This document shows positions 4,657-58,619 of a stretch of DNA of 64,000 bases, one piece after another. The DNA lies in NCBI GenBank assembly GCA_023512835.1, contig CM042089.1, forward strand, positions 48,475,504 through 48,539,503, written 5' to 3'. The DNA comes from Taxillus chinensis. Its lineage: Eukaryota; Streptophyta; Magnoliopsida; Santalales; Loranthaceae. Position numbers and translations under genes: made by a program. Position 1 is the stretch's first letter, and each line of letters opens with the position of its first letter. The notes under the pieces are model-generated. The model did not search any database and was not told the DNA's origin. It saw only the letters and a list, made by a program, of their open reading frames with translations.

Positions 4657-6230
4657 TTAAGGTACATAAGGCTTATTATACTTGAAGATCATTGTTGCTG
4701 CTTTCTCACGAAGCTCCATTGTCTGCTCTATCGTAAAGTTGAGCATACCATTCCAGTCTTCATCCACCTTCATGAAGGACTTAATGAAGTAGCAGACAAA
4801 AGCTCTGCAACTATCTCCATCGGGCTGTTGAAGAACATTCTTGTTGCTTTAGATCGCCGCTTTCAGCTTTTCAGTAGGAGCTAAAGGAGTTTGACTCATT
4901 TCTTCATAAAGCTCGGATTGCTTTACTACTTCTGTCAGTCGAAGTCGCAATGGTTCCAATTGATTCTTTTTTACTTTGTTTTTCACAACCTGATGAGAAT
5001 CAATTAGGAGCATTTGTTTTGACGGAATCAGAAAAACAATCAGCATGAAATGCAGAGTTTTGACCCGGTACGGAATGAGGACAGAGGTAAGATTTCTCCA
5101 AGGTTTGCTGTCCTCAACAGTTCTATCAATGAAGGTCCGGATGTGGGTTACGTTTGGAAGATAACCCTCTGACCAATATGGAAAGACGTCAGAAATGTGT
5201 CCGTCCTTGTATAGAGATGAAAACAGCCTTATCTCCATCTTAAGTGCCCGAGAAAAGTTGTCTATATCACTCGTAGTAAACAAGCCTTTCTCATAACGTA
5301 AGGTTTGTATATCTTGAGGTGAGAAGGGAGAGATATCCGTTAGACACCTTCGCTCGGCAGTAGAAGAGGCATACTGAGTCATTGCATTATAAACACTTCC
5401 ATCCACATCATGAGGATCAAGAGCCGCATATGATGGGAGGAAGGTGATAGCCTTAGATGGAGAAGTCGAAAGAGGAGTTGCACTTGAGGAGCTAGGTTGA
5501 GAGAAGCGGCTGTGTTTGGGCATAGGAACTCCCGGAGGAAGTGTAGATGCAGACCGCTTACTAACAGGAGCAGAGGAAGCTGCAGTAGGATTAGATGGTA
5601 CTTTCTCCCCCGTTTTGGCAGATTGCAGGGGAGTGGCAGGAGCACGAGCCATAGTGTGAGCCAAGTCTACAAAGGAGGTAGACAATGAATGCACAGACGA
5701 GGCTACAAGATCTATGTTCTGCTCGATGGAAGTGGAAGAGTCGGTTAGGGCAGAGAGGAGTTGGGCACCTAGAGCATCAAACTTAACGACGTTGACAGCA
5801 ATTTGGGTGCTCTGGGCTTGAGCATGGCAGTCCAGTTGTGCAGAGATCACAACATCGGAATGAACCATGCCAAAATAGGCACACCCAAGCACAAACTCCG
5901 GTGCTTTGGAGGACTCCCCTGCATGAAGAGGGGCAGGAGTGCGCCGGGCAGAGAAGTCGGTAGGAGGAAAGAGAGGTTGGTCATCAACAGCAACGAAGGG
6001 ATTAGCCGAAGCATCGGAGGCATCCGGGGCTGCAGATCCGCTTTGACCAGAAAGGTCAACAACGGGAATGGCGATAGTAGTAGAAGAGGGCTTGGCCTCA
6101 GCAGGAGAAGGAACCCGTGTGTCATGGGCCGGTCCGGAGGTAACGGCGAATGGTGCGTCAAGAAGGGAAGTCAGTGTAAGAAAGCCGTGATCCAAGTTCC
6201 AGACGATCATGTCTTCCGGGGTTTTGGTAT
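4657..6230 (-). pseudogene. Copia A ORF3, C-terminal part with Ulp1-like C48 protease domain
   Basis: This is the downstream part of the third ORF of Copia A; the N-terminal continuation is at 25487-25983, and the frame is continuous once the 5-bp duplication is counted once. It starts with a phrase like MIVWNLDHGF, then a Pro/Ser/Ala/Asp-rich stretch, then a helical segment (about 5640-5800), then the C-terminal domain. Visible protease landmarks are a 'TTSDIDNFSRAL' segment (the position of the Ulp1 'W-L-x-D' motif), an HF followed by a strand and LLIDSHQ (candidate His and Asp), and after an in-frame TAA (4849-4851) QQPDGDSCRAFVCYF (candidate Gln and Cys). The true end appears to be the stop at 4657-4659. 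Apart from the Copia B insertion, that single TAA is the only lesion seen. Ulp1/SENP enzymes process or remove SUMO; the substrate here is unknown. Confidence 0.75.
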
Positions 6231-7499
6231 TATTGGATCAAGCCCAGAATTTGGATAATGCTAATAAAGCCCTATGTAATTTGATTTGAGATCTTTTGAG
6301 TTTTGTCTTTAATCATTGCAGAAGATATGTTATTAATCCGGAGATACACTTGTAAGAGCAAAGCTAAGGATAGGATACATAATCCTGATCCGGACGAGAG
6401 TGAGTGTCGTCAAACACTTGGTAAATAACCAAGTCCCCCATACATACGGAGTAAGGAAGTACTGATGTGGAATAAGGACCCGAGTCTTTATTGGCACGGA
6501 GTAAGGAAACCAGATGCGGAGTAAGGAATCCGGACCACTCACTCATGCGGAGTAAGGATGTGCTAGTACGGAGTAAGCCATCCGATCCTTTAAGCTCGCA
6601 CGGAGTAAGAAACTTGTACGGAGTAAGGAACTTACATGCGGAGTAAGGATGTGCTAGTACGGAGTAAGCCATCCGATCCTTTAAACTCGCACGGAGTAAG
6701 AAACTCGTACGGAGTAAGGAACTTACACGCGGAGTAAAGAAGCGCTGATACGGAATAAGCACTCCAACCTTCTCATTCACACGGAGTAAGCAACCACTGA
6801 CACGGACTAAGGATTCCAGTACCAAATAGATACGGAGTAAGCAACCACTGACACGGAGTAAGGTTCCGAGCTTCATTAGCAACGGAGTAAGGAAAATTAC
6901 ACTGGACCAAGAAGATGCTACTTCAACTTACCGCATTTAAAGTTATCAGCTTGTGGTGTCCCGATGTAAGACAAACTCGTTGAGAACCTAAAGAATCTTA
7001 CACGTGGATCACTCGGATATGTGGACACAACTTTAATTATACTTGGGAACTCACAAAGGCACTTATACTCTTCAAACCCAAGATCTTGATCTCCACAAAC
7101 CACAGCAGTCAAGGCAGAGAGATTACCGAGGAATAGTTAGTGCTGAACGCATTCCGGAACTACAAGTTCCAAGGTTGTCTCTTAGGAATGTTTGTATAAA
7201 TATTCATACTTGTACATTTGAAAAGTGCGCGAGCGAGCCTGAATCAACCCTGTGTATGCACAAGAGTTCAAAGACATAATATAGGCTAGTGTGTGAATCC
7301 TTTTGTAAACAGAGTGTAAAAGAGTCTTGCTTCTATTTTGTTGTATTTATCTTTTGATAATAAAACAAAATACTTCCACTATCTGGTTATCTTCCGCAGT
7401 GATTTTATCACTTAACTAGATAAGAGTTGTGTCATAAGAGATTCAAAAGAGTTTCGATAAGAGCCTATTCACCCCCCTCTAGGCTCCAAGGGACCATCA
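6231..7499 (+). repeat. 5' LTR of Copia B (1269 bp)
   Basis: Begins at the GGTAT duplication and ends CCATCA immediately before the primer binding site. About 19 copies of ACGGAGTAAGG-like words occur between roughly 6430 and 6900, counted by eye. The 3' half (6991-7499) is matched by the truncated 3' LTR at 24938-25486. Confidence 0.93.
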
Positions 7500-11701: not shown

Positions 11702-14533
11702 CTCTGGAATGCACTGCCGGATCACTTGAAGTTAAAGATCAATCAAAGCAAGTGGATCCTCGATAGTGGATGATCCAGACATATGACGGGTGATCAGACT
11801 CTGCTTGTAGAAGTTAATGAAAAATGAGGTCCGTCCGTTTCATATGGTGACAACAGCAAAGGAAAGACTGTCGGGTATGGCACTTTAACCAACGGCTGTG
11901 TATCAATCACTAAAGTTGCACTAGTCGAAGGTTTGAAGCATAATTTGCTAAGTGTCAGTAATTTATGTGACAAAGGATTTACTGTTTCCTTTATGTCCAA
12001 CACCAGACAATAAGGGAAAACTTATCCGGAGATGTTAAGTTATCCGGATCAAGAGATGGGGACATATACTCAGTGGTCTTAAGAAATAATTCTTCTGACC
12101 CTGTATGCTTCCTCACTAAAGCTTTAGATGATGATAGCTGGTTATGGCACAAGCGATGCGCACATTTAAACTTTAAGACATTGCCTAAGTTAGCGTCACT
12201 TGATCTTGTCACTGGTCTACCTAAACTCAAATACTCCAGAGACAATCTCTATCGAGAATGCCAACTTGGCAAACAGACCAAACATAGGTTTAAGAGCAAA
12301 TCAGTTAATTCAATAACTGCTCCTCTACAACTTCTTCATATGGACCTCTGTGGTCCTATTTTTGTTCCTTCGCTGGCTGGTGCGAGATATACCCTTGTGG
12401 TTATCAATGATTTCACCAGATACACATGGGTGATGTTCCTGAAATCAAAGGATCAAACTTTTGAGCATCTTGTAGATCTTTTCAATTGGATAAGCAACTC
12501 ACAAGGACTGAGCATAAAGTGCATCAGGAGTTATCATGGTACAAATTTGATTTTTTAGAGATGAGATCATATTGTTCTGAACAGGGCATTCAGCATGACT
12601 TCTATGCACCCAGAACTCCACAACAAAATGGGGTAGTTGAGCGCAAGAATCATACTTTAGTCGAGGCTGGCAGATCTATGTTAGCAGGGGCAACGCTTCC
12701 TCTCAGTCTATGGGCTGAAGCTATGTCCACTGCCTGCTATGTTCAGAACAGAACTCTAATAAATAAATCTACCATGAAAATACCCTATGAGATGTGGAGA
12801 GGACGAAAGCCTTCAATTTCACATTTCAGAGGTTTTGGGTGTACTTGCTTTATATTGATAAATGGCAAAGAAACCCGGAATAAATTTGAACCAAAATCTG
12901 ATGATGGGATTTTTGTCGGGTACTCATTACATAGCAAGGCTTATCGGGTCTTCAATAGAAAACTTTTTAAAGTTGAAGAATCTATCCATGTAACCTTTGA
13001 TGAAACTAATCTTGATTGGTCAAAAGTTGCTTCTTCAAGTTATAATGTACAGGTCCCGGACAGCAACATTGACTATTCGAAGTTCATGAATGTTCCTATT
13101 ACACATTCTGACCAACCACGTGGTATCAGTGAGGCACAAAGAAATTATATGGATGATGCTACGGATGATTCGGACTCAGGACTACCATTAAGCTCCGGAC
13201 ATACTCCTTCGGATACCCAAAATTCCGGAGCACCTTCAAGCTCGTCCGGACCAGTTAACACTGAAAGAAACACTATTGAAGAACCACCTAGTTCTACCGT
13301 ACCTTCTAATACAGAAACATCTGGTCCGAAAGAAGCTCAACTAGTAGATATACCTGAACCACCTAATCTGGCAGAGCTTCAAATAATTCAAGATCAACCA
13401 TCACATGCACAGAATTACAGATGGACCCGAAACCATCCCTTAGATCAAGTGATTGGTGATACTACTGCTGGTGTAAGAACAAGAGCAGCCACTTTCAACA
13501 TGTGTCTTTACTCGTGTTTTCTATCACAAATAGAACCAAAAGTGGTAGATGAATCAATTTAAGAGATATAATGTGTGGACTCTAGTACCAAGGCCTAAGT
13601 CTCAGCAAGTCATTGGAGTTAAATGTGTGTTCCGGAACAAGCTTGATACGGATGGAATAGTAATCCGGAACAAAGCCAGACTGGTTGCCAAAGGATATCG
13701 TCAAGAAGAAGGAATAAACTATGATGACACCTTTGCTCCCGTAGCAAGACTTGAGGCAATCCGAATGTTTCTGGCGTATGCTTCATATGAAAACTTCATA
13801 GTTTATCAAATGGACGTCAAGAGTGCATTCCTGAATGGAGATCTTAAAGAGGAGGTGTACGTTGAACGACCTCCTGGTTTCATTGAACCTAAGGCAGGAC
13901 ATCTAGTCTACAAGCTTCAGAAAGCTTTATATGGTTTGAAGCAAGCTCCAAGAGCCTGGTACGACACACTGCCGGAATTCCTACTTGCTCACAACTTCCA
14001 AAAAGGGAAGATTGACACCACCTTATTTCTACGAAAAGAGAAAGGACACACTCTAATCGTATAGATATACGTGGATGATATCATTTTCGGATCAACAAAT
14101 CCGAAGCTTTGTGAAGAGTTTGCAAAGTTGATGACAGGCAAGTTTGAGATGAGCATGATGAGAGAACTGTCCTACTTCCTTGGAATAGAAGTTAAACAAT
14201 TGAAGGAAGGAATCTTCATTAATCAAGCTAAGTACACTCGCGATCTTATTAAGAAGTTTGGTATGGAAGGTTCATCTCCCGTCAAAACTCCCATGCCAGT
14301 CAGTGCCAAGCTAGATCCTTATGTGGATGGAATATCAGTAAATGTGACTGACTACAGAGGGATGATTGGATCCTTGCTGTATCTTACAGCAAGTCGCCCA
14401 GACATTATGTTTGTAACTTGCATCTGTACACGATATCAGGTGAATCCTAAGGAGTCACATATGCTTCATGTTAAACGGATATTAAGGTATCTCAAGGGAA
14501 CGATGAATTTGGGACTCTGGTACCCAAAGGAGT
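11702..14533 (+). pseudogene. pol: Copia B pol: protease, integrase, reverse transcriptase (5' part)
   Basis: The protease active site reads WILDSG at about 11752, followed by TGA where Copia H has Cys. The GAG-pre-integrase/HHCC region lies at about 12140-12290 (WHKRCAHLNF... CQLGK). Integrase core: first Asp in HMDLCGP, but the second catalytic Asp is Tyr (IRSYHG instead of RSDHG), and the Glu lies in NGVVERKN. The reverse transcriptase holds [13 protein letters not shown] and YVDD at 14068-14079, with a TAG six nt before YVDD (14062-14064). A roughly 40-nt deletion near 13555 removes the linker that Copia H keeps (WIEAMQEEL) and shifts the frame. Element D interrupts at 14533; RNase H follows at 21308. 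Confidence 0.9.
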
Positions 14534-17709: not shown

Positions 17710-17713
17710 ATAA

Positions 17714-17934: not shown

Positions 17935-18060
17935 AAACGTGCATGAAGATGGGCTCAACCAATTCACGTGCAAGGGCTAATTTGGTCAGAACACTCTGAA
18001 AATTTAGGGGCACGTGTATCACGCCAATTGGAGCATCTTTCCTTCTGCACGCTATATAAA
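17935..18060 (+). promoter_or_regulatory. Internal U3-like promoter region before the protease remnant (element D)
   Basis: ACGT-core words (ACGTGCA, TTCACGTGCAAG at about 17968, CACGTGTATCACG at about 18011) are followed by TATATAAA at 18053-18060. The layout matches the region at 36684-37153 in element F, which precedes the C48-protease ORF there. Promoter activity is inferred. Confidence 0.5.
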
Positions 18061-18100
18061 GAGATGCCATCTTCAAAGGCTTCCACACCAAAATCACTCT

Positions 18101-18253
18101 AGTGGAATCTTTGCTTGCTACTACATGATGGCTATTCTGCAAGGGAGAGAAACTTGGGAAGTGCGCAGCGAGACATCGGTTGTCTTTGGGGCTCAGGTGC
18201 GACGAATGGTGGCCAATGTCATCTACTATTACAGCTTGCCAACTGAGAGGTAA
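18101..18253 (+). pseudogene. Remnant of C48 protease ORF3 (element D)
   Basis: The reading SGIFACYYMMAILQ followed by a VRRMVANVIYYYSLPTER tail aligns with the last 50 residues of ORF3 in F (39400-39549) and G (47510-47673). The catalytic Cys is lost: the reading is SG where F and G read SCG. All upstream parts of the ORF are deleted, and the frame ends at TAA 18251-18253. Confidence 0.8.
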
Positions 18254-21779: not shown

Positions 21780-22557
21780 TTGACTTCTCTACATAGTCCC
21801 ACATTTCAATTACCCAACAGTATACTTACTTTCAAAACATGCATTGTGCTTTTATTGATAGTAGATACATACTGGTCTCAATGTGATCATTCTTGCTGTT
21901 TAACGTGCTTCATGCTTCTGATATTGATATCAACTTCATATTGGGAGGATGCTTGCGTTTCCCGACTGAAGTCGGTAAGCAAATATGATTAAAGTTTATA
22001 TGATTAATCTCACTCTGGTTTCATGATCTTAATTTCCACTGATCACCACATGACAAATACCTGTTCGTTTGGATTACTCTATTAACATGTATAGTTGAAG
22101 AAATGAAATGGGTTAGCTCGGAATGTCTGGTGGATGAATACACAATCACAGTTTGATCAGCTTCTGAAGTATAGTTTCTTAAAAAGATAGACAGTACTGA
22201 CTTTCTTTAAGCCGGAAAGGTCTACCGAGAGGATTGCACAATCTACGGGGGAGAAAATGCTTATAAATTATTCGAGTAATACCCCCCGTATATGTCTCAT
22301 GACCTCTTTCCTGGCTGTCTATTCGAGGGGGAGCCTTTTTTTTTTTGAGAGGATCGAATGATCTACGGGGGAGCCTAAGCTTCATCTATTACCTCGGTAA
22401 TAACCCCCTAATATGTCTCAGATACTCCCTCCTCTAAACCTTTACTTCCGGATCTAACTGGACATGCGTTGTTGAAATAGAATTGAGGCATGCTTGGATG
22501 TTTTCTTTTCTTCAACCATGCATTTTAATCGGATAATCAACTGCTTGCTTTTGACAT
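21780..22557 (+). other. Copia B spacer between pol and ORF3 with polypurine-like repeats
   Basis: Noncoding. Between about 22230 and 22380 it holds the repeated unit GAGAGGAT...ATCTACGGGGGAG (about 22230-22254 and 22350-22373) and another purine run GAGGGGGAG near 22325. The equivalent tract of Copia H lies at 54650-54800 on the minus strand. Multiplied polypurine-like tracts between pol and the 3' LTR are, as I recall, a feature of Sireviruses. Relative to H, the part just before ORF3 that carries a TATA box appears deleted in B (near 22560-22590). Confidence 0.6.
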
Positions 22558-24935
22558 GTGTCCGCTTCCTCATTTCTCACTCTTCTAAAAGCCTCTCACA
22601 TACTCGACTTGATCTCCAATCCTGTCGATCTTGTTATAGACGACATTCTCGAGTTCTACCAACGGATCCGCTGTACCACCGACTCCATCATCTCCTCTGT
22701 TCGCAGTGAATCCATCCTAATCACCCCCGCCGTTCTCCGCGCTGCTCTCAATCAACCCCCCCCGGTGAATCACAGCGCTCCGATGCCGATCCCATGGCGG
22801 CTTCTATGGGTTACACCTATAAAGGCAAGGAATACAAGGTGAAGTCCTTCCAAGGTCGCTATCGCTGTATGGCGATCATACTGAGTCAATGTTTACTGGC
22901 TCGCACTTCTGCTCTGGACTCTATTCCATACGATCTTCTTCTGGCCATGTACGGTGTTTTCGAAGGTCTTCCGATGGACTCGGGGATGTTTTTGTTCCGA
23001 CTGCTGCAGAATGGACCCAAGAACCATTCCTTCGAGTGCATCCTAAGCATTGTCTTCCGGCAGCTTCATCCGGACCATTTCGCCCGCTCTGAGGCTGTTC
23101 CATTTCCTCCGGCTTATTATCTTCGCTATCTTATGCCTGATGGGAACATGACGGCCCGCCGTCCCTCTGCTGCTCTCTGCCTGCTTCCTGCCACGGAACA
23201 ACAAGGCAGTTCTGTTGGTGATCCCTCCGACAGCCATGCCCCTGACGTCAGCTCTGCTCACCGATCCTCCCAGATTCGGTTCGTTGCTGCACCCTTCATT
23301 GCTCGGGCCTCCCAGCACATTGTCCGTGCCGAACCCTCCGAGGTTGCGGGGCCATCTCAGCGCAGTGTCCCTAGAGCTGTTTCCTCAGCCCCTTCTACTG
23401 CGGATGTCCCCACTCCCTCCACTTCCGCTGTTGTTGCCGCGGTTGATACCGCCGTTGCTGCCGTCATTGCAGATGTCCCGGAATCTATTCTGGAAGCTCC
23501 TTTGCCTCCCCTACCTCAACCCCGAGCCTACCTTGACCATCTCTCCGCCGACACCTTAACGGACCTTTGGCTCCGTTTCAGCCTTGCCCACACTGCCTCC
23601 ATTCCTGACACCGATCTCTGGGTGTTTTACACTCGTCATACCCAATCCCCGGAGACCATGATCATCTGGAATTTGGACCAAGGCTTTCTTACGCCGGCCT
23701 CCATTCCAGATGTGCCATTCCCTAACCCCTCCAGCCCGGTCCATGCCGCACGGAGTCCTTCCCCTGCTAAGGTTGGACCTTCTTCTCCTGCTGTTGACAT
23801 TCCCGTTGTTGACCTATCTAGTCAAAGCGTGTCTGCTGCTCCGGATGCCTCTGCTGCTCCGGATGCCCCTTCTGCTGCTTCTGCTGATACTCCTGCGAAC
23901 TCCTCTACCCAGCGCACTCCTGCTCCTGTTCATGCGGGGGAGTCCTCCAAAGCTCCCGAGTTGGCCCTTGGGCGTGCTTCTTTTGGCACGGTCCACTCTG
24001 ACGCTGTGCACTCCGCCCAGCTGCACCACCACGCCCAAGGTCAAAGCGCCCAAATATTCGCCATCGCCACCAAGGTCGATGCTCTTGGCGCCCAACTCCT
24101 CTTCGCCCTCACCGACTCCTCCACCTCCATGGAACAGAAGATGGACCTAGTCGCCTCGTCTGTCCACTCCTTGTCTACCTCCTTCGCGGACCTGGCGCAT
24201 ACGATGGCTCGCCCTCCCGTTGCTCCCCGGCGATCTGCCAAACCAGGGGAGAGAGTGTCATCTGATCCTTCTGCTCCTCTTGCATCACATTCCTCCACTC
24301 GTGCTGAGAAGCGGCTTGCCTCTTCATTGCTTCAGGGAGTTCAAATCCCCAAACGTAGCCGCTTCTCTCAGCCAAGCTCCTCGAGTGCAGCTCTTCCTCC
24401 ATCCTCTCCATCCGCAGCTGACACCTTCCTCCCATAATACGCGGCGTGTGACCCTCTTGATGCGGACGGAAGCGTGCATAAGGCAATGATTTCCTATGCT
24501 GCATCTACTACCGAGAGAAGATGTCTCTCTGACCTGTACCCCTTCTCCCCGGACAACATTCGGACCCTTTGTTCGGAGAAAGGCCTTTTTACAACAGACG
24601 ACATTGACAACTTCTCTAGGGCTGCTAAAATGGAGATGAGGCTGTTTCCATCTCTGTACAAGGACGGCCACATGTTTGAAGTTCTGCCACGCTGGAATGA
24701 GGGCTATCTTCCCAATATAGATATCATTTAGTCCTTTATCGACGGAACTGCTGAGGATAGCAAGCCATGGAGAACTCTCTCAACTGTCCTCATTCCGTAC
24801 CGGATCATGTCGCCACATTTCATGATGGCTGTCTTCATGATTCAGTCCAAACAGATGATTCTGATTGATTCTCATCAGATTGTAGAGCAGTATGTAAGAA
24901 AGAATCAATGGGAACCACTGTGTCTCAGGTTGACT
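22558..24935 (+). pseudogene. Copia B ORF3 (plant-transposon domain + linker + partial C48 domain)
   Basis: The N-terminal domain reads ISNPVDLVIDDILEFYQR (about 22610-22665), ILITPAVLRAALNQPP, then after a frameshift near 22780-22800 KSFQGRYRCMAIILSQCLLA and DSIPYDLLLAMYGV. This resembles the 'putative plant transposon protein' domain and aligns with F ORF3 (GFHGKYRCLANLVGRCLLL). A 250-codon Pro/Ser/Ala-rich region and a helical segment (DLVASSVHSLSTSF) follow. The start of the C48 region is present: TTDDIDNFSRAAK, VLIPYRIMSPHFMM and MILIDSHQ. Stops at 24435-24437 and 24729-24731 are single lesions. The first 30-odd residues seen in Copia H and the Gln/Cys end seen in Copia A are missing; the 3' end is removed by the deletion that truncates the LTR. 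Confidence 0.78.
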
Positions 24936-24937
24936 GA

Positions 24938-25486
24938 AGAATCTTACACGTGGATCACCCGGATATGTGGACACAACTTTAATTATACTTGGGAACTCAC
25001 AAAGGCACTTATACTGTTCAAACCCAAGATCTTGATCTCCACAAACCACAGTAGTCAAGGCAGAGAGATTACCGAGGAATAGTTAGTGCTGAACGCATTC
25101 CGGAACTACAAGTTCCAAGGTTGTCTCTTAGGAATGTTTGTATAAATATTCATACTTTTACATTTGAAAAGTGCGCGAGCGAGCCTGAATCAACCCTGTG
25201 TATGCACAAAAGTGCGTGAGCGAGCCTGAATCAACCCTGTGTATGCACAAGAGTTCAAAGACATAATATAGGCTAGTGTGTGAATGCTTTTGTAAATAGA
25301 GTGTAAAAGAGTCTTGCTTCTATTTTGTTGTATTTATCTTTTGATAATAAAACAAAATACTTCCACTATCTGGTTATCTTCCACAATGATTCTATCACTT
25401 AACTAGATAAGTGTTGTGTCATAAGAGATTCAAAAGAGTTTCGATAAGAGCCTATTCACCCCCCTCTAGGCTCCAAGGGACCATCA
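24938..25486 (+). repeat. Truncated 3' LTR of Copia B
   Basis: Only the last 549 bp of the LTR remain, beginning at ATCTTACACGTGG, which corresponds to 6993 in the 5' LTR. The missing piece includes the CGGAGTAAG array, the polypurine tract and the end of ORF3. A 41-bp segment present once in the 5' LTR is duplicated in tandem here (25169-25209 and 25210-25250). Confidence 0.9.
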
Positions 25487-25983
25487 GGTATTGCGAGTAT
25501 AATACACCTGGAGATCATTGTCGGGGATGGTGGTTGTGCAAGCAAGGCTGAAATGGAACCATAGGTTCATAAGAGTGTCGGCGGGGAGATGGTCGAGGTA
25601 GTCTCGAGGTTGAGGAAGTGGAGGCAAGGGTACTTCCGGAGGAGAGGTGGGGACATCAGCCACTGCCGTAGCAGTAGCGGCATCAACAGCAGCATCAATA
25701 GTAGGAGAATCAGGCGCAGGGACATCAACAGCAGAAGGTGCTGATGAATCATCTAGAGGACAAGTTGGCTGAGATAGCCCCGCAACCTCGGATGGGTCAG
25801 CGCGAACGCTGTGTTGGGAGCCGCGAGAGATGGAAGGAGCAGCTACGGACCAAATCCGTGAGGACCGGTTGGTAGAGCTGACCTCGGGGACAGAGTTGTC
25901 GGCTGGGTCACCAACCGAGCTACCCTGTTGTTCCGGAGCAGGGAGGAGGCGGAGAGCAGCAGAAGGCTGACGTTCTTTTTGCG
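25487..25983 (-). pseudogene. Copia A ORF3, N-terminal-side part
   Basis: Continuation of the ORF at 4657-6230 on the far side of Copia B. On the minus strand it reads PSAALRLLPAPEQQGSSVG, a Ser/Ala/Asp/Pro-rich linker, then PLPPLPQPRDYLDHLPADTL and VYYTRNT, joining the TPEDMIVWNL phrase across the GGTAT duplication. It aligns throughout with Copia B (about 23155-23640) and Copia H (about 52430-52890). The upstream N-terminal domain is outside the window because the Ogre-type LTR begins at about 25984. Confidence 0.8.
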
Positions 25984-27229
25984 TGTAATTGGTCACCTAA
26001 AATGTGGGTGGTCTACATTACCAGATGAAGGTTCGGGGCTTGGTTACGTGTAAGGAAGGATTAGCACCCCTACAATGCCCTTTCAGTACCTATCTTAGGA
26101 GGAGGAAGTTTCTATTTGTTTTTCTTACTTTCTTGTTTTTATTTTGTTTTTTTTATTTCTTAGAAGCATGTTGGTTCCACGAGTAATGATTTACTAGAGA
26201 TGTTTTCTTATTAGTCTCACTGCCAAAGGATAGACATAAATGTTGCCTTCTCGAATATTGGTCTATTCCGGATGACGGTATAGACCGAAATTTAGTTGTT
26301 ACATTTTTTGTATTTTTGATGATTTTTTTGTTTATTATATTTTGCTTTTTTTTTTGTTTCTTTTGCAGGGTTCACTCCCTTTCCCTCTACTTTTCTTGTT
26401 TTTCTCCTCTTTTTTTTTTACATATTACACATATTACAATTGCATATGGCACGTAACGAAATAAAGTAAACAACAATAGAAATAAAAATTACATCGAACT
26501 GACAAACGGAATTAAGAACATGAAATGAAATACACAACACACCAAACCGACTATCAAAGACTCCGACAAACGTCTGCTCTGGTAGCAGCACCACGCTCGA
26601 GCTATCCCGTTAGTGTCAACGTCTCCCAAACAATATGGAATTGGCCAAACTTTGATTTACAGCTATTGAGAGAGATGAGATTGAGAAGAACAAATGATAG
26701 GTATTTTTGGATTTTCGTTTTCTATAAATAACAAAAAAAATGCGATAGGGGTTTGGGAGGTTTTTTTTCTTTTTTTCTTTATTTACTTTGGTTTGTAATG
26801 TACGGATGTCTGGGAGAGACAGGAAGGGAATAGGTCTGATTAGAATGAGAAAGAGAAAGTTTTCTGTTTTTTTTTTGGCTAGCAATTTCGTAAGGAGAGA
26901 GAGCAAGATTTGGTCTCTTTTTTTGTAATTCGTAATCTCTTTTCCGTTGGAGAGAGCTTCCCTTTTAATATAATGTGCTTCACCTTCATTATTAATTGCC
27001 AACCCTTTTTTATTGCTAGATTCTAGCCTTTGTCTAGTGGTTGGACGATCTGTGCGGAAAATAAGGTAGCTTGTGATTACCTTTTTGTTTTATTATGAGC
27101 ACATGTGTCTGACAAGCATTGAAGAGCATTTGCCCATCTAAACCCGTGTAGCAACAGTGAGCACACCCGTGAAAAGGCCAATCAGGGAAGGTCAAAGGTT
27201 GGCAGGGTCGAAGGTCGGAAGGTCAAAGC

Positions 27230-31932: not shown

Positions 31933-32271
31933 GGTCTCTGCTACTGGAGCAACATAGTATGGAGAACATTCTCAGCCACAACTTCCTCCTGGGTTCCAGA
32001 AGATGCCTCAACAGAAGGAGGAAGACAAAGAGAAGGCAAAGGATGAAGAGATGCGGAACTTCTTTTATCAATTTGCTAAGCAAGCAACTGACAGAATGAG
32101 TAAGGGGGAGACGAGGATTGAGTCCCTTACCACTTCTGTCCAGGATCTTGGGGCTGCCATGAAGAATATAGAGCAGTAGATTGGCCAGCTAGCAAATGCA
32201 GTTAGGCCATCTTCATCAAATACTTTTCTAGCAATACAGAGGTCAACCCAAGGGAGCAATGCAAAGCTATA

Positions 32272-34500
32272 ATGCTTAGAAGTGGGAAAGAACTACTAGC
32301 TGGAGAGAAAAAAGTCGAGCCAACCAAGGAGGAGTCGGAACAGTATGCCCAGGAGGAAGCTAAGGAAGGAGATGCTGAGCAGCATAAGGACCAAACAAAA
32401 AAGGTTGGGAGTAGTCAACCGACAATCCGTCATCCTGAAGTTAGCTCTCCCGTTCCGTATAAACCTCCTTTGCCGTATCCTCAAAGGCTGAGGAAACAGA
32501 AATTAGATGCTCAGTTCCAAAAATTCTTAGATGTATTCAAAAAGCTGGAGGTGAACATCCCATTCATAGAAGCCTTGGAACAGATGCCTGGATATGTCAA
32601 ATTTTTAAAGGATCTACTGTCCAAGAGGAGAAGCTACACTGATTGTAAGATAGTGGCTCTCACAAATGACATTAGTGAAGTGGTGCAGCACAAGCTACCG
32701 CCCAAGCTTAAAGATCCGGGTAGTTTCACGCTGACCTGTACCATTGGCACCTCGCAATTGGAGCAAGCCCTATGTAATTTAGGGGCGAGTATAAATCTGA
32801 TGCCAATGTCCATCTATCGGCGACTGGGCTTGACTGGAATAAAGCCCACTTCCATATCTTTACAATTTGCTGATCGCTCAATAGGAAAGCCGGCGGGCAT
32901 CATTGAAGATGTTTTAATCAAGGTGGATCGCTTTATCTTCCCAATGGACTTTGTTGTATTGGAAATGGAAGAAGATAAAGGAGTCCAATTGATTCTCGGA
33001 AGGCCATTCCTGAGTACTGGAAGGGCCTTGATCGATGTAAACTCAGGGGAGTTGACGCTGCGTGTGGATGAAGACGCAGTGGTGTTCAACATGGAGCGTT
33101 CAATGCGCAAGGCAAATGATCATTCTAGCTATTATTGGATTGATCAGATTGCTGAATTCGTGGACAGCTACTTTGAAGAGAGCTTGATCACTGGAAGCTT
33201 GGATCACGAATTGCAACAGGTGGATTTTGCGGAGGTGGAACCGGAAGAGACTTATGAAGTGCTGAAAGAACAAACTGAGCAGCAGCCTTCCTCAACTGAA
33301 TCCTCAGCAATCACGGAACCCTTGCCAGTTCTGAAGCAACCCCCAGAACATCTGAGGTACGAGTTTTTGGATACACAAGGGCGTTACCCTGTGATAGTAG
33401 CTGCGTCCTTAACAGTAGAAGAAACCAGACAGCTACTAGAAGTCTTAAGGGAGCATAAGCAGGCCCTAGGGTGGTCTCTGGATGATATAAAAGGTATAAG
33501 TCCAGTGGTCTGCATGCACAAGATACTGATGGAGGAGTCTTATACTCCTACTGTAGAGCGCCAACGCAGGCTCAATCCTGCAATGAAGGAAGTCGTTGGC
33601 AAGGAGATTCTGAAGTGGAGGAAAGCGGGCATCATATATGCCATTTCAGATAGCTCCTGGGTTAGTCCAGTACAAGTGGTTCCCAAGAAGGGCGGCATGA
33701 CATTGATACGCAATGAGAAGAACGAGCTTATTCCATCCCGCACAGTGACCGGGTGGCGCGTGTGCATTGATTACCGCAAGCTGAATAAAGCCACGCGTAA
33801 GGACCACTTTCCGTTACCTTTCATTGATCAAATGCTAGATCGGTTAGCTGGCTACCCGTATTATTGTTTTCTGGACGGTTATTCTGGATACAACCAAATA
33901 GCAGTTGCCCCGGAGGATCAAGAGAAGATTACATTCACGTGCCCTTTTGGCACGTATGCTTTCCGGCGTATGCCATTTGGTCTTTGCAACGCACCTACTA
34001 CTTTCCAGAGGTGTATGATGGCCATTTTTCAAGGGTTAGTGGAGGACATTATGGAAGTCTTTATGGATGACTTCTCGGTATTTGGTTCAACTTTTTCCAT
34101 CTGCCTCAAAAATCTGGAAACCGTGTTAGTCCGATGCAAGGAAAAGGACCTGGTCTTGAACTGGGAGAAGTGTCACTTCATGGTCAAGGAAGGAGTCGTC
34201 CTTGGGCATAGAGTGTCCGCAGCTGGGATGGAAGTAGATAGAGCAAAGATCTCCACCATTGAGAGTCTACCTCCTCCCACTAATGTGAAGGGCATCCGGA
34301 GCTTTCTGGGTCATGCAGGGTTTTATCGGCGGTTCATCAAAGATTTCTCAAAAATTGCCAAGACCCTAAGCATGCTTTTAGAGAAGGATGTTCCTTTCAT
34401 ATTTTCGGAAGACTGCCTTCAGGCCTTTACAGTGCTGAAAGAGAAGCTCAGTTCAGCACCGGTGATAGTAGCTCCAGATCGGTCGCAACCCTTTGAGTGA
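32272..34500 (+). pseudogene. pol: Element F pol, protease and reverse transcriptase
   Basis: A 742-codon open frame. The gag-pol linker contains YPQRLRKQKLDAQFQKFLD, typical of Athila. The aspartic protease region (codons about 160-290) reads CNLGASINLMP, where Athila-type proteases have DLGAS: the catalytic Asp codon is AAT at 32776-32778, a probable G-to-A change that should kill the protease. It continues with LILGRPFL. The reverse transcriptase reads IIYAISDSSWVSPVQVVPKK, WRVCIDYRKLN, DGYSGYNQI and FMDDFSVFG (the catalytic Asp pair intact), then GHRVSAAGMEVDRAKI and the RNase H connection. A one-base deletion near 34497 (TTTGAGTGATG where TTTGAG-TTG-ATG is expected) ends the frame just before RNase H. 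Confidence 0.93.
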
Positions 34501-36217
34501 TGTGTGATGCGAGTGACTTTGCAATCGGAGCGGTGCTTGGGCAGAAACGGGACAAAGTTTTCAGGGCAATATATTATGCCGTCGCACACTCAATGAGGCC
34601 CAGCTCAATTACACTACTACAGAGAAGGAGTTACTTGTCGTGGTGTTTGCTTGTGATAAGTTTCGGTCATATCTTTTGGGCACTAAGGTCATTGTTTACA
34701 CCGACCATGCTGCCCTGAGATATTTGTTCAGCAAGAAGGATGCGAAACCCAGGTTGATCAGATGGGTTTTGTTACTCCAAGAGTTTGATCTGGAGATTAA
34801 AGACTTGAAGGGGACTTCCAACACTGTGGCAGACCATTTGTCAAGGCTGGAGCTAGGGGAAGGTAGTACACAAGGTGCTACTATTTCTGACACCTTCCCT
34901 GATGAGCAGCTCTTTGTAGCTGAAGCAAGGACGCCATGGTTTGCTGATATAGTGAACTACCATGCATGTGACTATGTACCTACAGAGTTTACTTATCAGG
35001 AAAAGAAGAGGTTCCTCTTTGATGCAAGAAGATACATTTGGGATGAGCCTGTTCTATACAGGCAATGTGCTGATCAGATCATCAGAAAATGTGTGCCAGA
35101 AGAGGAAGTGGACAGCATACTGAAGCATTGTCATTCATCTGACTATGCTGGCCATTTAGGAGTGCAAAGAACGGTGGCAAAGATCCTACAAAGTGGGTTT
35201 TACTGGCCAACCATATTCACAGACACATACACCTTTGTTAAGTCATGTGATCAGTGTCAACGAACGGGAAGGATTACAAGGAAGCAAGAGATGCCCCAAA
35301 CTGGCATTATGCCAGTCGAACTTTTTGACATATGGGGAATCGATTTCATGGGACCTTTCCCACCATCAGATGGATTTTCTTACATCCTTCTGGCTGTTGA
35401 CTACCTCTCAAAGTGGGTTGAAGCTATACCCACTAGGAAGAATGATGCTCAAGTGGTTACCAAGTTCCTTCGCCGCAACATATTTAGCCGGTTTGGAACA
35501 CCTAGAGAAATTATCAGTGATGAAGGGAGTCACTTCTGCAATAAACTTTTCGACAAGCTCTTAAACAAATATGGAGTTCAACATAGGCGCACCTTAGCCT
35601 ATCATCCACAAGCAAACGGTCAAGCTGAAGTTTCCATCCGTGAGATCAAGCACATTTTGGAAAAGATAGTGGGAGGCAACCGAAAAGATTGGGCTCTAAA
35701 ACTCGATGAGGCGTTGTGGGCTTATCGCACAGCATTCAAAACGCCCATTGGAATGTCTCCTTATTGTCTACTGTACGGAAAGGCCTGCCACTTGCCTGTT
35801 GAATTGGAACACAAGGCATTTTGGGCAGTTAAAAAGCTTAATATGGATCCCAATGTTACTGCTGACCTACGATTGCACCAACTAAATGAGTTGGAGGAAT
35901 TTCGCTTCAATGCCTATGAGAGTGCGAAGCTGTACAAGGAGAGGTTTAAGCTCCGACATGATTAGAAGATCAGCCCCTCTACTGTTGAACCAGGGCAGAA
36001 GGTGCTTCTCTTTAATTCCAGACTTAAACTCTTCCCTCGGAAGCTGCAATCTAAATGGATGGGGCCTTTCACTGTTACAAAGGTTTTTCCATATCTGAGT
36101 GTTGAACTCCAATCAACCTCTGGACAAATATTCAAAGTAAATGGTCAGTGTGTGAAGCCATACTACATGCAGGACCATGTTAAGGAGGTTGATCATTTCA
36201 CTCTGAGCACAACTTGA
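34497..36217 (+). pseudogene. pol: Element F pol, RNase H and integrase
   Basis: RNase H starts [14 protein letters not shown], with a second frameshift near 34590-34640. The long frame 34640-35965 then reads [19 protein letters not shown] and [10 protein letters not shown]. The integrase HHCC zinc finger is visible as [10 protein letters not shown] and CDQCQRTG. The catalytic triad is intact in IDFMGPFPP (Asp), IISDEGSHF (Asp) and [12 protein letters not shown] (Glu). TAG at 35963-35965 precedes a readable C-terminal tail (KWMGPFTVTKVFPY, VNGQCVKPYY) ending at 36217. Integrase would insert the cDNA copy; the core looks functional apart from the stops. Confidence 0.93.
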
Positions 36218-37153: not shown

Positions 37154-37236
37154 GGGATGAGTTCCAAGCTTCAAACTCACATCTCATACTTTCTTCTCCT
37201 TTCTTGCTGAGAGCAAAATCCCTTCTCTGGTTAGTC

Positions 37237-39549
37237 ATGGTGCATACAAGGAGAGCCCGCCAAGGAGAAGGCAGTCCTGAAGCCTCTGCCACCTCTATGC
37301 CTTTGGCATTGAGAGATGCCGACACTATCTTCGTGGGGAATGTGCTTGATTGGGAGATCCTGGAGTCCTCCACCCTTGACTGGACTGAAGAAGTTATGAC
37401 CAAGCTGCAGGCGTTGGGACTGAGAAGGTTAGTATGCGCTCGCAGTGATTTGTATTACCCTGCCATGTTAGACTTTTATAATTCAGTCTATGTCAATGAG
37501 GAAGATGATGAGATAATTGTGGAATCTTAATTTCTATTTCCCCTGCTATGTTGAGAGATTGCTTTGATCTGCCAAATCCCATGCACGCAAAGCCTGCATT
37601 GACCTTAGGAGAATATGGTAGAGCTTTACAGTATAAAAAGGAATTTGGGAAACGTCGGCAATTTACGAAAAACGGATTTCACGGGAAATACCGTTGCCTT
37701 GCCAATTTAGTAGGGAGGTGCTTACTGTTACAAACTAGTGGCGTAGACTCAATCCCTAAATCCCATTTGGAGTTTATGTTTTGCATCGATCGTCAGTTAC
37801 ACATTGATTGGGCTGCGGAAATTTTTAAATTGTGGAAACGGGACATTCATAAATGTTTATATGGTCGACTACTTAGCATGCTTCTGCAATATCAATATGG
37901 TCATCTTAGTGCTCAAGTAGTCCCCACTGTTTTCCCGAATAACTTGCGGTTACGAGTTCTCCATCCAGAGGGTGCCTTAGGGGTTAGCTACAAGGGCAAA
38001 TGGGGAGATAGTATCCATGTCGCACCACAGCCTTCACGTCATAGCGTGCATATGGAGCGACCCACGGAGCAGTTTAGGGACACCTCCACTCCCATGAATG
38101 CCCGCCGACAGCACATTTTCCAGTTGACTGGCATGTACATGCAGTTCAATGTTCACAAGGAGGAAATCTACAATTTCTTCCAAGGCATCAGTGGCCAAGT
38201 TATCAGTGAAGTTGACGTTCTTAACTGGGCTTTCACTAATGGCCACATCACAAGACTTCAGCTGGATGAGCTGCTCGAGTACATCACTCAAGATCAACAA
38301 GCAACGTCTCGTCTATCTGCTCGACCATGGGAAGCCCCGGAGCCAACTCTTGCTGCTTCTTATGAAGACTCACGGAAGCAAACTGCTCAACTACAAGAGG
38401 CACAGGCGGAAACCGTTCAGGAGATCGGGCTGCTGAAAAAAAATCAAACTCTCATCCTTAAGGAGCAGAAGGAAGTCAAAGGGCTGCTCGGTAAGATCTG
38501 GAAAGCCCTGGGGAAGAAGAAGAAGAAAACTCCTACACCTCCTGTGGAGGAACCATTTGACGCACCATCACCTCCGGTACAGCAGCACGCTGCACATAGC
38601 GAAGAGACACCGGAATATCCCCAGTATCCGCAAGAGGCGGAGCCCTACACCGCTCCACCCTTCCCTCCAGCAGTTCCTGTTTATTTCACACCACCAGCAG
38701 GGCCCAGCTCTTCACAGGCCCTAGTTCCCTTAATCCAGCCATTGCAATGGTGGTCTGGCACATCATCAGAAGCTCCCCAGGAAGATAACCTCGGGGCGCC
38801 CATCTATATTCATCTTCATCCGGCCCTCTCCACTGTTGATGCCACAGCTGCTTTTCATCAGTTTACTTATGGAGACACCTTGCAAGCACGTTTTACACGT
38901 GATTCAGAAGTCTTCACGTCATCTTATTTGCAGCGTATCCTAGCTGATGAGTACTTATCTTCCGATGACATTGACTTATTCTGCCGTACGATGCGACACG
39001 TGGTGGAGGCTGAGCCCAACGACTACCCTATGGCTCAGTACACTTCTATCATGCTGTGCGAGATATATGAGCAGCCGTTAGAGGAGCATATCTTCTGCCG
39101 GCGGATGAATGGAGCAGCAGAAGGACATCGCTCTTGGCACCAGGTCCATGAGGTTCTTATACCGGTCCTCCTTGATCGACACTTTGTACTCTTGCAATTG
39201 GACCTGACTGTGGGCCATGCTGTCCTTTATGACCCGAGCCAAGCCCATGGGTTTTCCACACGCAAGAAGAAGCTTGTCCATGGTTTCTTGAAAAAAAATC
39301 AAAAATGCACTCAGAAAAGAAGGGCTATTGACATCCAAGTTTCCTCTGGTCCACTTCAATGAAATGGAGCTTCCCCAACAACCTGATCAATTCAGTTGTG
39401 GGATTTTTGTCTGCTATTATTTGATAGCTCTGTTGCAGCATAAGGATACTTGGGCGCTCACAGGAGAAACCTTGGCTGACTTTGTCGCACGTCTTAGAAG
39501 AATGGTGGCCCATGTTATCTTCTACTATAGCGTACCCACCAACCGGTAA
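37237..39549 (+). pseudogene. Element F ORF3: plant-transposon-like domain fused to Ulp1-like C48 protease
   Basis: Start MVHTRRARQGEG is chosen by its position after the TATA box. The N-terminal domain has SDLYYPAMLDFYNSVYV, ISPAMLRDCFDLPNP (after a one-base frameshift at about 37530), GFHGKYRCLANLVGRCLLL and DSIPKSHLEFMF, resembling the 'putative plant transposon protein' domain. Then a helical, Lys-rich segment (TVQEIGLLKKNQTLILKE to GKKKKKT, 38410-38530), a Pro-rich linker, and the C48 domain: LSSDDIDLFCRTM, HFVLLQL with candidate His at 39180-39182, VLYDPSQ with Asp at 39231-39233, a frameshift in an A-run near 39290, and QQPDQFSCGIFVCYY with Gln at about 39388 and Cys at 39397-39399. 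The ORF ends after YYSVPTNR at 39547-39549. No signal peptide or membrane span is seen, so it is not an envelope protein. The likely activity is SUMO-type isopeptidase, unproven. Confidence 0.82.
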
Positions 39550-45929: not shown

Positions 45930-45932
45930 AAT

Positions 45933-46687: not shown

Positions 46688-47673
46688 CATATGATAGTTC
46701 CTACCCTTCCCAAGAAGTGCACCCTCCACTAGGGCTATCAGCAGGGTACTCTGATTATCCCCAATATCCGCAAGAAGCTGCGCTGGAAGCACGATACTCA
46801 CCTTTTGATCCCTATGTGGACCCTGCCTATTCTTAGGCCATAGTGCCTGTTGTGCAACCTATTTTATGGGGGACTTATATGCCAGCTGAACCTCATGATT
46901 CCCTAGGAGAGCCAGTGCATCTGAGGATTAATCCGGCCATCTCTTCTGTGGAAGCTCAAGTGGAATTTGAGCGATTTATAAACCCTAAGGTGCAGCTGGC
47001 TCGCTTTGTAAGGGACATGGACGTCTTCACATCCGATTTTTTACGGCGGATTTCAGGTAATGAATTTTTATGTACAGATAATGTGGATCTATTTTGCAGG
47101 ACCATGCGATTCGTAGTGGAGGCTGAGCCTCATAATTATCCGTTAGCCCAGTACAAGTCTATTATGCTGTGCGAATTATACGAGCACCCCTTGTCTGAAA
47201 GTGTTCTGTATTAGCGTATGAATGGTGCGAATGAAGGCCACCGACCCTGGCACACCGTGCATGAGGTACTAATCCCTGTACACATTGACCACCATTTTGT
47301 ATTAGTGCATTTGGATTTGAGTACAGGGCATGCAGTGCTGTATGATCGCAGTCAAGGCCATGGGTTTGGAAGAAGAAAGAGACAGCTTGTTCATGGCTTC
47401 ATGAAAAGAATTAAAGACGCCATGAAGAAAGAGGATTTGTTGCAGAGCAAATTACCTCTTATTCACCTCACTGAAATGGAATTTCCTCAACAGCCTAACC
47501 AGTTCAGCTGTGGGATTTTCGTTTGCTATTATTTGCTGGCTATCCTGGAGCAAAGAGATAGTTGGGCGGTCCGCGGTGAAACTTCAATTGATTTTGTGGG
47601 TCGTGTTAGGCGAATGGTGGCCCAAGTTATCTACTATTATAGCTTACCCGCGGATAGGTTAGGATCTTCTTAA
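46640..47673 (+). pseudogene. Element G ORF3, C-terminal half with C48 protease domain
   Basis: In the frame +1 to gag it reads Pro/Tyr/Ser-rich linker phrases (DYPQYPQEAA, close to F), then AIVPVVQPILW, LCTDNVDLFCRTM, HEVLIPVHIDHHFVLVHLDLS (candidate His near 47293), VLYDRSQGHGF (Asp), EFPQQPNQFSCGIFVCYY (Gln and Cys) and ends YYSLPADRLGSS at 47673. Only two lesions are seen, TAG at 46837-46839 and TAG at 47215-47217. The protease core after 47218 is open to the end, with all four catalytic positions visible. No start codon is obvious, so it may have been expressed from the gag frame. Confidence 0.82.
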
Positions 47674-51697: not shown

Positions 51698-53560
51698 GGA
51701 GGACGAGCCATCGTGTGATCATTCTCTTGGGCGTGAGGATGCAGACCATTTCTTTTCATCACGAGAGGAGGAAAGTGCAGAAGGATCAGATGACACTTTC
51801 TCCCCCGGTTGGGCAGATCGGCGAGGGACGGGAGGAGGACGAGCCATCGTGTGAGCCAAGTCCGCAAAAGAAGTGGATAGTGAATGGACGGATGAGGCAA
51901 CAAGGTCCATCTTTTGCTCGATGGAGGTGGAAGAGTCATTTAGGGCGAAGAGGAGTTGGGCACCAAGAGCATCAACCTTAGCGGCAATGGCAGAGATTTG
52001 GGCGGTTTGAGCTTGGGCGTGACGGTCCAGCTGAGCAGAAAGCACAACATCGGAGTGAACCGTCCCAAAAGAGGCACGTCCAAGCGCCAACTTCGGAGCT
52101 TTGGAGCATTCCCCGGCAGGAATAGGTGCAGGGGTGCACTGGGCAGAGGAGTCCGCAGGAGTAGAGTGGTCAGCAGCAGTAGCAGAGGGGGCATCCGGAG
52201 CATCAGAAGCTTCCGGAGCAGCAGAGCCACTATGACCAGACAGGTCAACAACTGGGATGGCATCTACAGGAGAGGCGGACCGAGCCTCAGCAAGGGAGGG
52301 AACCCGGGCGTCATGGGCTTGTCCGGAGGAGACAGCGAAGGGAACCTCCAGAATGTGGACAGGCATAAGAAAGCCATGATCTAGATTCCAGACAATCATA
52401 TCCTCCGAGGTGCGGGTGTGTTTGGCATAGAACACCTTGAGGTCATCATCGGGGATGGAGGCTGTGCAGGCGAGGCTAAAACGGAACCAGAGGTCCATTA
52501 GGGTGTCGGCGGAAAGATGGTCTAGGCAGTCTTGGGGTTGAGGTAGAGGAGGCAAGGGAGCTTCCGGAAGAGATTCCGGGACATCAGCGATGGCAGTGTC
52601 AACTGCGGCAGCAACAACGGAAGTGGAGGGAGTGGGGACATCCGCAGCAGATGGTGTTGGGGAAATAGCCTTAGGTAAACTGGGCTGAGATGGTCCCGCA
52701 ACCTCAGAAGGGTCGGCACGGACGCTGTGCTGCGAGGCTCAAGAGATGGAAGGAGCAGCAACGGACCGAATCCGGGAGGACCGGTGAGCAAAGCTGACTT
52801 CGGGGGCACGGCTGTCGGAGGGATCACCAACCGAGTTGCCTTGTTGTTCTGAGGCGGGAAGAAGGTGGAGAGCAGCCGAGGGACGGCGAGCTGTCATGTT
52901 CCCATCAGGCGTACGGTAGCAAAGATAATAAGCCTGAGGGAAAGGAACGGCATCATAGCGGGCAAAATGGTCCGGATGGAGATGCCTGAAGACAGTGCTG
53001 AGGATCCGCCCAAAAGAGTGATTCTTTGGACCGTTCTTCAGTAGCCGGAACAAGAAGGTCCCCCAGTCCATCGGGAGACGCTCAAGGACGCCGTACATAG
53101 CCAATAGAAGGTCGTATGGGATGGAATCCAGAGCAGTGGTACGAGCCAGGAAGCATCGACTCAGAATGGTCGCCAGACAACGATAGCGACCTTGGAAAGA
53201 CTTCATCTTGTGCTCTTTCCCTTTGTAGGAGCAACTCATGGAAGTAGCCATGGTCTCAGCATCCGGGCGCTAAGGATCACCGGGAGGTAGATTGAGGGCG
53301 GCACGGAGGACAGCAGGGGTGATCAATATGGATTCACTGCGGACGTAGGAGATAATGGAGTCCATGGTGCAGCGAAGCCGTTGGTAGAACTCAAGTATGT
53401 CTTCAATAAGAAGATCAACAGGATTTGAGATTAGGTTGAGGATGTGAGAGGCTTCCAGGAGTGGGCGGGGTTCAAGAAACCAAGCCGGAGGATCGGAGAC
53501 CGCGCGCCAATCAACCAGATGGCCGGGGTTGATCCCGCAAAGAGAGATTTTGGGTGCCAT
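51698..53560 (-). pseudogene. Copia H ORF3, N-terminal and linker parts
   Basis: Start MAPKISLCGINPGHL at 53560 lies 110 bp after a TATA box. The N-terminal domain: ISNPVDLLIEDILEFYQR, ILITPAVLRAALNLPPG, a stop near 53270, then KSFQGRYRCLATILSRCFLA, DSIPYDLLLAMYGVLERLP and HPDHFARYDAVPFPQAYYL. A stop at about 52737 is followed by the Ser/Ala/Pro-rich linker and helical segment (DLVASSVHSLSTSFADLAHT). The deletion that truncated the LTR removed the C48 region. The N-terminal domain aligns with Copia B and, more distantly, with element F. Confidence 0.8.
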
Positions 53561-53830
53561 TGGGGGAAAGTTTGAGAGGAGAAGGAGGTGAGGTCTTGGG
53601 GATTGAAGGAGCGATGAGGGGTTTGGGGATTTGGAAAATGTAAAACTCGCGCTGCGTAGGAATGTCCAGGATATATAGGACCGAGTCCGGGATTATTAGC
53701 GGGTCTAGGGATTAAGCAAGTGAAACAGTGACCCAAGTGACAGGCTGATGTCATTAGTCTTGATAGCGGCGCACTTCCTGGATATAAAGATGACGTGGAG
53801 ACGGCATGACCAGGGAGTGATAACAGCTGT
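53561..53830 (-). promoter_or_regulatory. Putative internal promoter of Copia H ORF3
   Basis: On the minus strand, CCACGTCAT (about 53789-53797) and then CTATATAT (about 53670-53678) precede a CT-rich leader (CTCACCTCCTTCTCCTCTC) and the ATG at 53560. TATA-to-ATG distance is about 110 bp, close to the 91 bp in element F. Promoter function is inferred from composition and position. Confidence 0.5.
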
Positions 53831-58560: not shown

Positions 58561-58619
58561 TTGATTGATCTTTAACTACAAGTGATCCGGCAATGCATTC
58601 CAGAGATGCTCATGAAAGA

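Follow-up and report, generated by a model that had tools for sequence, protein, structure and literature searches.

A probable two-part accessory gene with a C48 (Ulp1)-type end in Ty3/gypsy and Ty1/copia retrotransposons of Taxillus chinensis

The stretch of Taxillus chinensis DNA analyzed here (64,000 nucleotides; assembly GCA_023512835.1, contig CM042089.1, positions 48,475,504 to 48,539,503 of the forward strand; hereafter the window) is plant-like and consists mostly of long terminal repeat (LTR) retrotransposons nested in one another. One of them, the Ty3/gypsy element Athila-like F, carries a third open reading frame (ORF3) between its pol gene and its 3′ LTR, and a related gene occupies the same slot in three Ty1/copia elements, Copia A, B and H. 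Homology, position, C48 (Ulp1) protease motifs and past purifying selection are found in both superfamilies, and the comparisons support the presence in both of what appears to be one two-part gene module. The interpretation that we favour, with reasonable rather than high confidence, is that of an accessory gene, placed in sense orientation and made of a conserved N-terminal block (N-block), a linker that is rich in Pro, Ser and Ala and evolves faster, and a C48 end, which would descend from a common ancestor, would have been transferred as a module and is likely to act in the removal of SUMO.

The original prediction placed the ORF3 of Athila-like F at 37237..39549, and these limits proved exact, with an ATG at 37237-37239 and a stop codon at 39547-39549. 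The reading runs through three open stretches that overlap (37108-37527, 37512-39359 and 39292-39546), changing frame from one to the next, and follows the order conserved N-block, variable linker and C48 (Ulp1) end. The linker contains a stretch rich in Gln, Glu and Leu, a run of Lys and a part rich in Pro. Its parts are the following:

37237..39549, + strand: ORF3 of Athila-like F, with two frame changes (ORF reading)
37650..37973, + strand: conserved N-block of F ORF3, in ungapped alignment to Copia H and B (sequence comparison)
38817..39359, + strand: upstream half of the F C48 domain, with His 39180-39182 and Asp 39231-39233 (sequence comparison)
39292..39546, + strand: Cys segment of the F C48 domain, with Cys 39397-39399 (Pfam C48, E 4e-6, 27.3 bits)

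A short overlapping direct duplication, about 71% alike, lies immediately upstream of this gene (36773-37091). Read by eye, the linkers of F (38364-38528) and Copia A (5503-5778) both have a segment of helical appearance and, after it, a basic segment (the run of Lys for F; KHSRF for Copia A) that could be a candidate nuclear signal.

Five further elements of the window hold related ORF3 sequence, two of them Athila-like (G and E) and three of the Copia type:

46837..47670, + strand: ORF3 end of Athila-like G, two stretches with an in-frame stop between them (Pfam C48, 1.4e-11)
18008..18250, + strand: remnant of the C48 Cys segment of Athila-like E, with Ser in place of Cys (sequence comparison)
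22555..24940, + strand: Copia B ORF3, with N-block, linker and His-Asp half (His 24816-24818, Asp 24867-24869), without the Cys part (sequence comparison)
4660..6237, − strand: Copia A ORF3, downstream part, with linker and C48 domain (His 5050-5052, Asp 4999-5001, Cys 4807-4809; sequence comparison)
25492..25996, − strand: Copia A ORF3, upstream part, linker (sequence comparison)
51722..53692, − strand: Copia H ORF3, with start region, N-block (in 52742-53269) and linker, deleted ahead of the C48 domain (sequence comparison)

The insertion of Copia B has divided the ORF3 of Copia A into two pieces of one gene (4660-6237 and about 25492-25996), a point missing from the original prediction. Its C48 domain is split by an in-frame stop (4849-4851), and no N-block was found for it. 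In the case of Athila-like G, a single open stretch (47215-47670) carries the full catalytic set in one frame, with His at 47293-47295, Asp at 47344-47346 and Cys at 47509-47511. Copia B (at 24940) and Copia H (at 51700) each have a deletion that extends from ORF3 into the 3′ LTR and took away some or all of the C48 end.

Similarity across the superfamilies was evaluated with 500 shuffles per comparison and by ranking against the 455 ORFs of at least 50 amino acids in the window, and on both measures the match appears real and above chance. The N-terminal 170 amino acids of the F main stretch score 130 against Copia B (z 23.1; shuffle mean about 28) and 155 against Copia H (z 27.7), values that 0/500 shuffles reach in either comparison; the 108 ungapped columns of the N-block hold 32 identities between F and B and 34 between F and H, and the best matches of the F N-block among the window ORFs are Copia H (152) and Copia B (127), the next one scoring 43. 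The Cys segment of F scores 83 against that of Copia A (z 15.9, 0/500, 18/54 identities), and the one of G gives a z of 15.7 in the same test. When ranked, the F Cys segment retrieves G (322), E (166) and Copia A (83) ahead of the next ORF (42), and the Copia A Cys segment retrieves F (83), G (81) and E (57) ahead of the next (46). The His-Asp halves match modestly, with z 8.1 (0/500) and 4.6 (1/500) for two pieces of F against Copia B, 5.6 (1/500) for F against Copia A and 7.7 (0/500) for the G C48 domain against the His-Asp half of Copia A, and a profile comparison of these halves, with three sequences per side, gave a probability of 63 and an E of 6.8e-5. The block preceding the N-block is weakly similar between F and the Copia copies (1/500 for B, 10/500 for H, whose start region gives z 2.5), and the upstream half of G did not match Copia A (33/500 shuffles, z 1.8).

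By shuffles and ORF ranking, the two ORF3 groups are thus related in sequence, as originally proposed. Two unrelated extra ORFs to which a C48 domain was fused separately, with a match reflecting general C48 likeness, would agree with the unaligned linkers, the modest His-Asp match and the wide occurrence of C48 domains in transposons, Ginger1 and Mutator among them (PMC2836005; here and below, statements on cited papers refer to the available parts of their texts). The ungapped alignment of the N-blocks, with z values of 23 and 28 and their wide lead in the ranking, speaks strongly against such separate fusions, which we regard as highly improbable. General C48 likeness was rejected as the cause of the match, given that the N-block matches too.

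Searches outside the window added little. No match was obtained for the long F piece or for the Cys-segment alignment in a protein database search whose collections hold little plant protein, and the N-block alignment retrieved one weak match, P0001, a 300-amino-acid fragment from a 1005-base public contig (source label lgn). Its open fragment is 88% identical to the F main stretch, so that P0001 was rejected as an outside relative, being itself another F-like copy. Scans of viral contigs, one of them with a piece of the F reverse transcriptase (RT), and a plasmid search yielded no relative, and neither a plant ULP nor a MULE (Mutator-like element) protein came out of any of these searches.

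The original prediction of a Ulp1-like protease is borne out at the sequence level by the Pfam C48 profile (PF02902, curated cut-off 20.7 bits), which is matched above this cut-off by G (1.4e-11, 45.1 bits) and by the Cys segment of F (4e-6, 27.3 bits), making the predicted C48 membership of both firm; in one Pfam search 7/10 pieces lacked a C48 match, and in another, with E up to 10, 9/9 lacked it. Among solved structures (PDB), those nearest to G are SENP1 (E 9.3e-6), followed by SENP5, yeast Ulp1 and SENP2. A profile of four Cys segments placed yeast Ulp1 on top (E 0.082), with nothing significant among the 15 matches listed, the other 14 of which include SENP1, adenoviral proteinase, Dub1 and one designed barrel. 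The order His, Asp, Gln, Cys is kept in F (across two frames), in G (in one frame) and in Copia A (across one stop); Copia B lacks the Cys part and E has Ser for Cys. Moreover, the His-Trp of SENP1 corresponds to His-Phe in F, G, A and B, and its Asp-Cys to Ser-Cys in F, G and A; this comparison, made with SENP1 and not with plant ULPs, hints at a common ancestry of these ORF3s within the C48 family. Predicted models of the G C48 domain (mean pLDDT, a model-confidence score, 42.4) and of the F N-block (52.3), built on shallow alignments, were too poor to use. With the G model, Foldseek ranked SENP5, SENP1 and SENP5 first, second and fourth, with 0/598 matches reaching E 0.001, and with the F N-block model it found nothing below E 1.2.

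A link of the N-block to the putative plant transposon protein domain named in the original prediction, which we take to be PF20167, found no support. A Pfam search admitting E values up to 10 did not match this domain in five pieces of F, B and H, whose split frames lower sensitivity. Up to the same E value, the ORF3 pieces did not match the Pfam Athila ORF-1 domain either; the latter occurs in 16% of Athila elements and is hence not required (PMC6317226).

The ORF3 copies also carry the mark of selection. Pairwise ratios of nonsynonymous to synonymous rates (dN/dS) are 0.13-0.18 for the Athila C48 parts, plus one saturated value of 0.04, and on the Copia side 0.14 for the N-block, 0.17-0.19 for the C48 domain and 0.24-0.38 for the linker; the ratios of F against G are rough, since their synonymous divergence (dS) is near saturation, and usable bootstrap replicates were 258/500 in the worst case. 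As a control, eight alignments were read in two shifted frames and gave dN/dS of 0.73-2.66 in 16/16 readings, and a wrong-frame artefact was rejected because the selection signal vanishes in these frames. The low ratios of the true frame as compared to the shifted ones therefore indicate that the protein was kept under constraint in both lineages before decay; that is, both superfamilies held the ORF3 protein under past purifying selection.

A sign of modularity comes from the comparison of Copia H (51722-61100) with Copia B (9306-24434), where fourfold-degenerate sites differ in 34/186 positions of pol and 89/238 of ORF3 (Fisher 1.5e-5), counts rounded from printed fractions and with RNase H (6/20) excluded from the pol pool. 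The gag gene is intermediate (26/91), differing significantly neither from ORF3 (0.16) nor from pol (0.06). These counts are suggestive of either a history of ORF3 other than that of pol, as a swap by recombination would produce, or a higher synonymous rate of ORF3.

The assignment of the elements to their superfamilies follows from gene order. Athila-like F is a Ty3/gypsy element, with gag followed by RT, RNase H and integrase; the label Athila was given at the first reading of the sequence and does not come from an RT tree. In Copia B and H, integrase-type matches precede RVT_2, which is the Ty1/copia order. The corresponding pol regions are:

32206..35962, + strand: pol of Athila-like F, with RT, RNase H and then integrase (domain search)
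12465..14061, + strand: pol of Copia B, with integrase-type matches and then RVT_2 (domain search)

The LTR pair of F (29050-29634 and 40874-41450) matches at 95.7%. The elements form a nest of three levels, with Athila-like E within Copia B within the ORF3 of Copia A. Copia B (about 6231-25486) interrupts the latter between GGTAT flanks (6226-6230 and 25487-25491), and Athila-like E (about 14534-21307), whose LTRs are 97.6% identical, sits in Copia B between GGAGT flanks (14529-14533 and 21308-21312), so that a 5-base duplication, read by eye, borders both insertions. Nesting was considered as a source of the ORF3 similarity and rejected, since a 5-base duplication marks each insertion and the genes compared across superfamilies, at about 30% identity, are not recent copies. 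No pol ORF was seen in Athila-like G (45930-49107) or E (16046-19798), both of which retain the C48 end of ORF3 plus the 3′ noncoding region. In G, the gag start is fused to the ORF3 end; E has open stretches of 218 and 172 amino acids within 16327-17709, upstream of its C48 remnant, and Pfam matches neither of them at E values up to 0.01.

In Copia B, a CCHC zinc knuckle motif, CFNCGKPGHWAKEC, of the kind expected in the large gag of a Sirevirus, was read directly in 10180-10908, and an exact TGGTATCAGAGC lies at 7502-7513, two bases past the 5′ LTR (0.26 occurrences with at most one mismatch are expected by chance), which is presumably a tRNA-Met-type primer site. The Sirevirus octamer AGGGGGAG occurs once in Copia B and twice in Copia H, always upstream of ORF3, the 3′ ends of both elements being deleted; the window holds 5 octamers against 1.93 expected, and at least 5 were obtained in 3/100 shuffles. 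SIRE elements have several AGGGGGAG octamers by the 3′ LTR, mostly downstream of the env-like gene (PMC2829016).

How could one gene come to reside in both superfamilies? The Athila-like and Copia ORF3s would derive from one two-part ancestor, and we infer that the module would have passed between co-resident elements, by recombination or by template switching during reverse transcription, well before the insertion of the present copies; its direction would be equally conjectural. There are precedents: Athila families have traded env regions (PMC2410132), and bdelloid rotifer retroelements of different classes have ORF3 genes in common (PMC5408684).

Several observations weigh against this interpretation. 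No intact ORF3 copy exists in the window, and the full domain order of the Copia side was assembled from three broken copies, none of which carries all the parts. The linkers could not be aligned (34/500 and 31/500 shuffles in two comparisons, z 1.9 each), and no DNA match of at least 200 bases was found between the F ORF3 and any Copia ORF3. Thus, of the original claim that these ORF3s have the same domain order and alignable segments, the aligned N-block and Cys segment stand, and the shared order is not displayed in full by any Copia copy. Among the 455 ORFs, the F His-Asp half retrieves G (283 and 267), then Copia B (62), A (56), E (53) and B again (50), with an unrelated ORF also at 50. 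Pfam C48 does not match the His-Asp pieces of F, A or B, and the profiles of the His-Asp halves retrieve no C48 structure. The Cys segment of Copia A falls slightly below the Pfam cut-off (7.6e-4, 19.8 bits), matches by itself only Dub1-type deubiquitinases (E of at least 1.1) and has Arg after the Cys, as against Gly in F, G and SENP1. C48 membership of the Copia genes would consequently be drawn from a Pfam near-miss together with homology to F and G.

Finally, on the comparisons made within the window, independent capture from a single two-part donor fits the data about equally well. Athila and Copia elements would each have taken the gene from a third source, host gene or transposon, in which the N-block was already joined to a C48 domain. 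That the similarity between superfamilies is old and visible at the protein level only (the 32 and 34 identities of 108) agrees with such a double capture, as do the many sources proposed for plant extra ORFs (Neumann 2019, PMC6317226) and the Ulp1 domains carried by Mutator-like elements (MULEs; PMC13317346). It requires, nevertheless, two acquisitions into an identical slot and orientation, and no donor of this architecture was found in collections poor in plant protein; we see it as a minority possibility, though a serious one. The original prediction had put movement between superfamilies next to two captures from one source: the shared module with a C48-type end stands, and these two routes are not separated by the present data.

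With respect to function, the protease activity, its substrate and its benefit are putative. Under the module-transfer interpretation, the C48 end would strip SUMO, or a modifier like it, from a protein of the host or of the element, the N-block and linker would target the protease, and relief of host silencing would be the most plausible benefit to the element. Counter-silencing is favoured because Ulp1-bearing VANC genes of MULEs are reported to induce hypomethylation of related copies, the role of the Ulp1 part itself being unknown (review PMC13317346). A bolder proposal, which we advance as speculative and rather doubtful, is that what has been called env in certain Copia elements of the SIRE type and gypsy elements of the Athila type is not an envelope gene but one and the same counter-silencing gene. 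It would encode a targeted SUMO protease, move between superfamilies as a module and be to retrotransposons what the anti-silencing genes with Ulp1 are to MULEs.

A close rival, somewhat unlikely in our estimation, is that the C48 domain serves the life cycle of the element itself, by trimming or de-modifying Gag or integrase. The dN/dS of ORF3 is indeed similar to that of the gag and pol genes of the same elements (0.14-0.36, Copia H against B), and Ulp1 and OTU domains have been suggested to act in transposition (PMC2836005). Nothing specific speaks against it, and the presence of the C48 end in G and E, without a pol ORF, fits either view. A true envelope-like gene acting in membrane fusion or cell-to-cell movement, as implied by the naming of this gene in Sireviruses and Athila, is very hard to reconcile with a C-terminal C48 domain. 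In a crude test, the highest 19-residue hydropathy means among 15 pieces were 1.77 (in the Copia A C48 core), 1.74 (B linker) and 1.57 (H linker); the main F piece reaches at most 1.37, and the 1.52 recorded for the first F piece falls mostly upstream of the ATG. An envelope role seems most improbable.

It is well established that SIRE and Athila/OTA elements carry extra ORFs (PMC6317226, PMC7264820) and that Ulp1 domains occur in DNA transposons (PMC2836005, PMC13317346); what would be new is a C48 ORF3 shared by Copia and gypsy elements. A limited literature search, with subscription papers, supplements and Repbase outside its scope, gave no account of plant LTR elements with a C48 ORF3, nor of such a gene common to both superfamilies. 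In the survey of Neumann 2019 (PMC6317226), the extra ORFs of SIRE and Athila/OTA (eORF-3′F, 'env-like') fall into Copia and gypsy groups counted apart (45 and 314) and their heterogeneity is stressed, whereas here one recognisable gene that ends in a C48 domain is common to two lineages; the term Ulp1 is absent from its main text, as it is from the main texts of a paper on orchid extra domains (PMC9289625) and of the Retand paper (PMC11963269). In common bean, antisense ORF2s of gypsy elements have no similarity to envelope-like proteins (PMC4093653). Another paper lists a Ulp1 gene close to a repeat-rich resistance locus (PMC5240378).

The closest parallels differ in their carriers. Ulp1 MULEs (Kaonashi/KIU and VANC-Ulp1; PMC13317346) also join a C48 domain to another transposon protein and provide the anti-silencing lead, but they are DNA transposons; the ORF3s of the window lie between LTR-element pol genes and LTRs and are not MULE-borne, no window-wide search for MULE transposases having been made. 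Ginger1 (PMC2836005) likewise has a C48 domain in a mobile element, with an integrase that groups near Athila/Tat, but comprises animal DNA transposons with Ulp1 or OTU inside the transposase. Bdelloid rotifers (PMC5408684) offer the same enzyme-coding ORF3 in unrelated retroelement classes, although in animal elements and with other enzymes (GDSL esterase and DEDDy exonuclease). Recombinant Athila lineages of Arabidopsis (PMC2410132) swapped env between families, and the ORFs of their non-autonomous elements are under purifying selection; their exchange, unlike the one proposed here, stays within Athila.

What the third gene of plant Sireviruses and Athila elements does has been an open question ever since the name env-like was given to it, and C48 motifs together with past selection in both lineages offer a concrete function that can be tested. 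If the gene is shared by anciently separate superfamilies, plant LTR retrotransposons would trade accessory genes, as rotifer retroelements do, and the extra ORFs of plant elements may be sorted by domain rather than by overall similarity.
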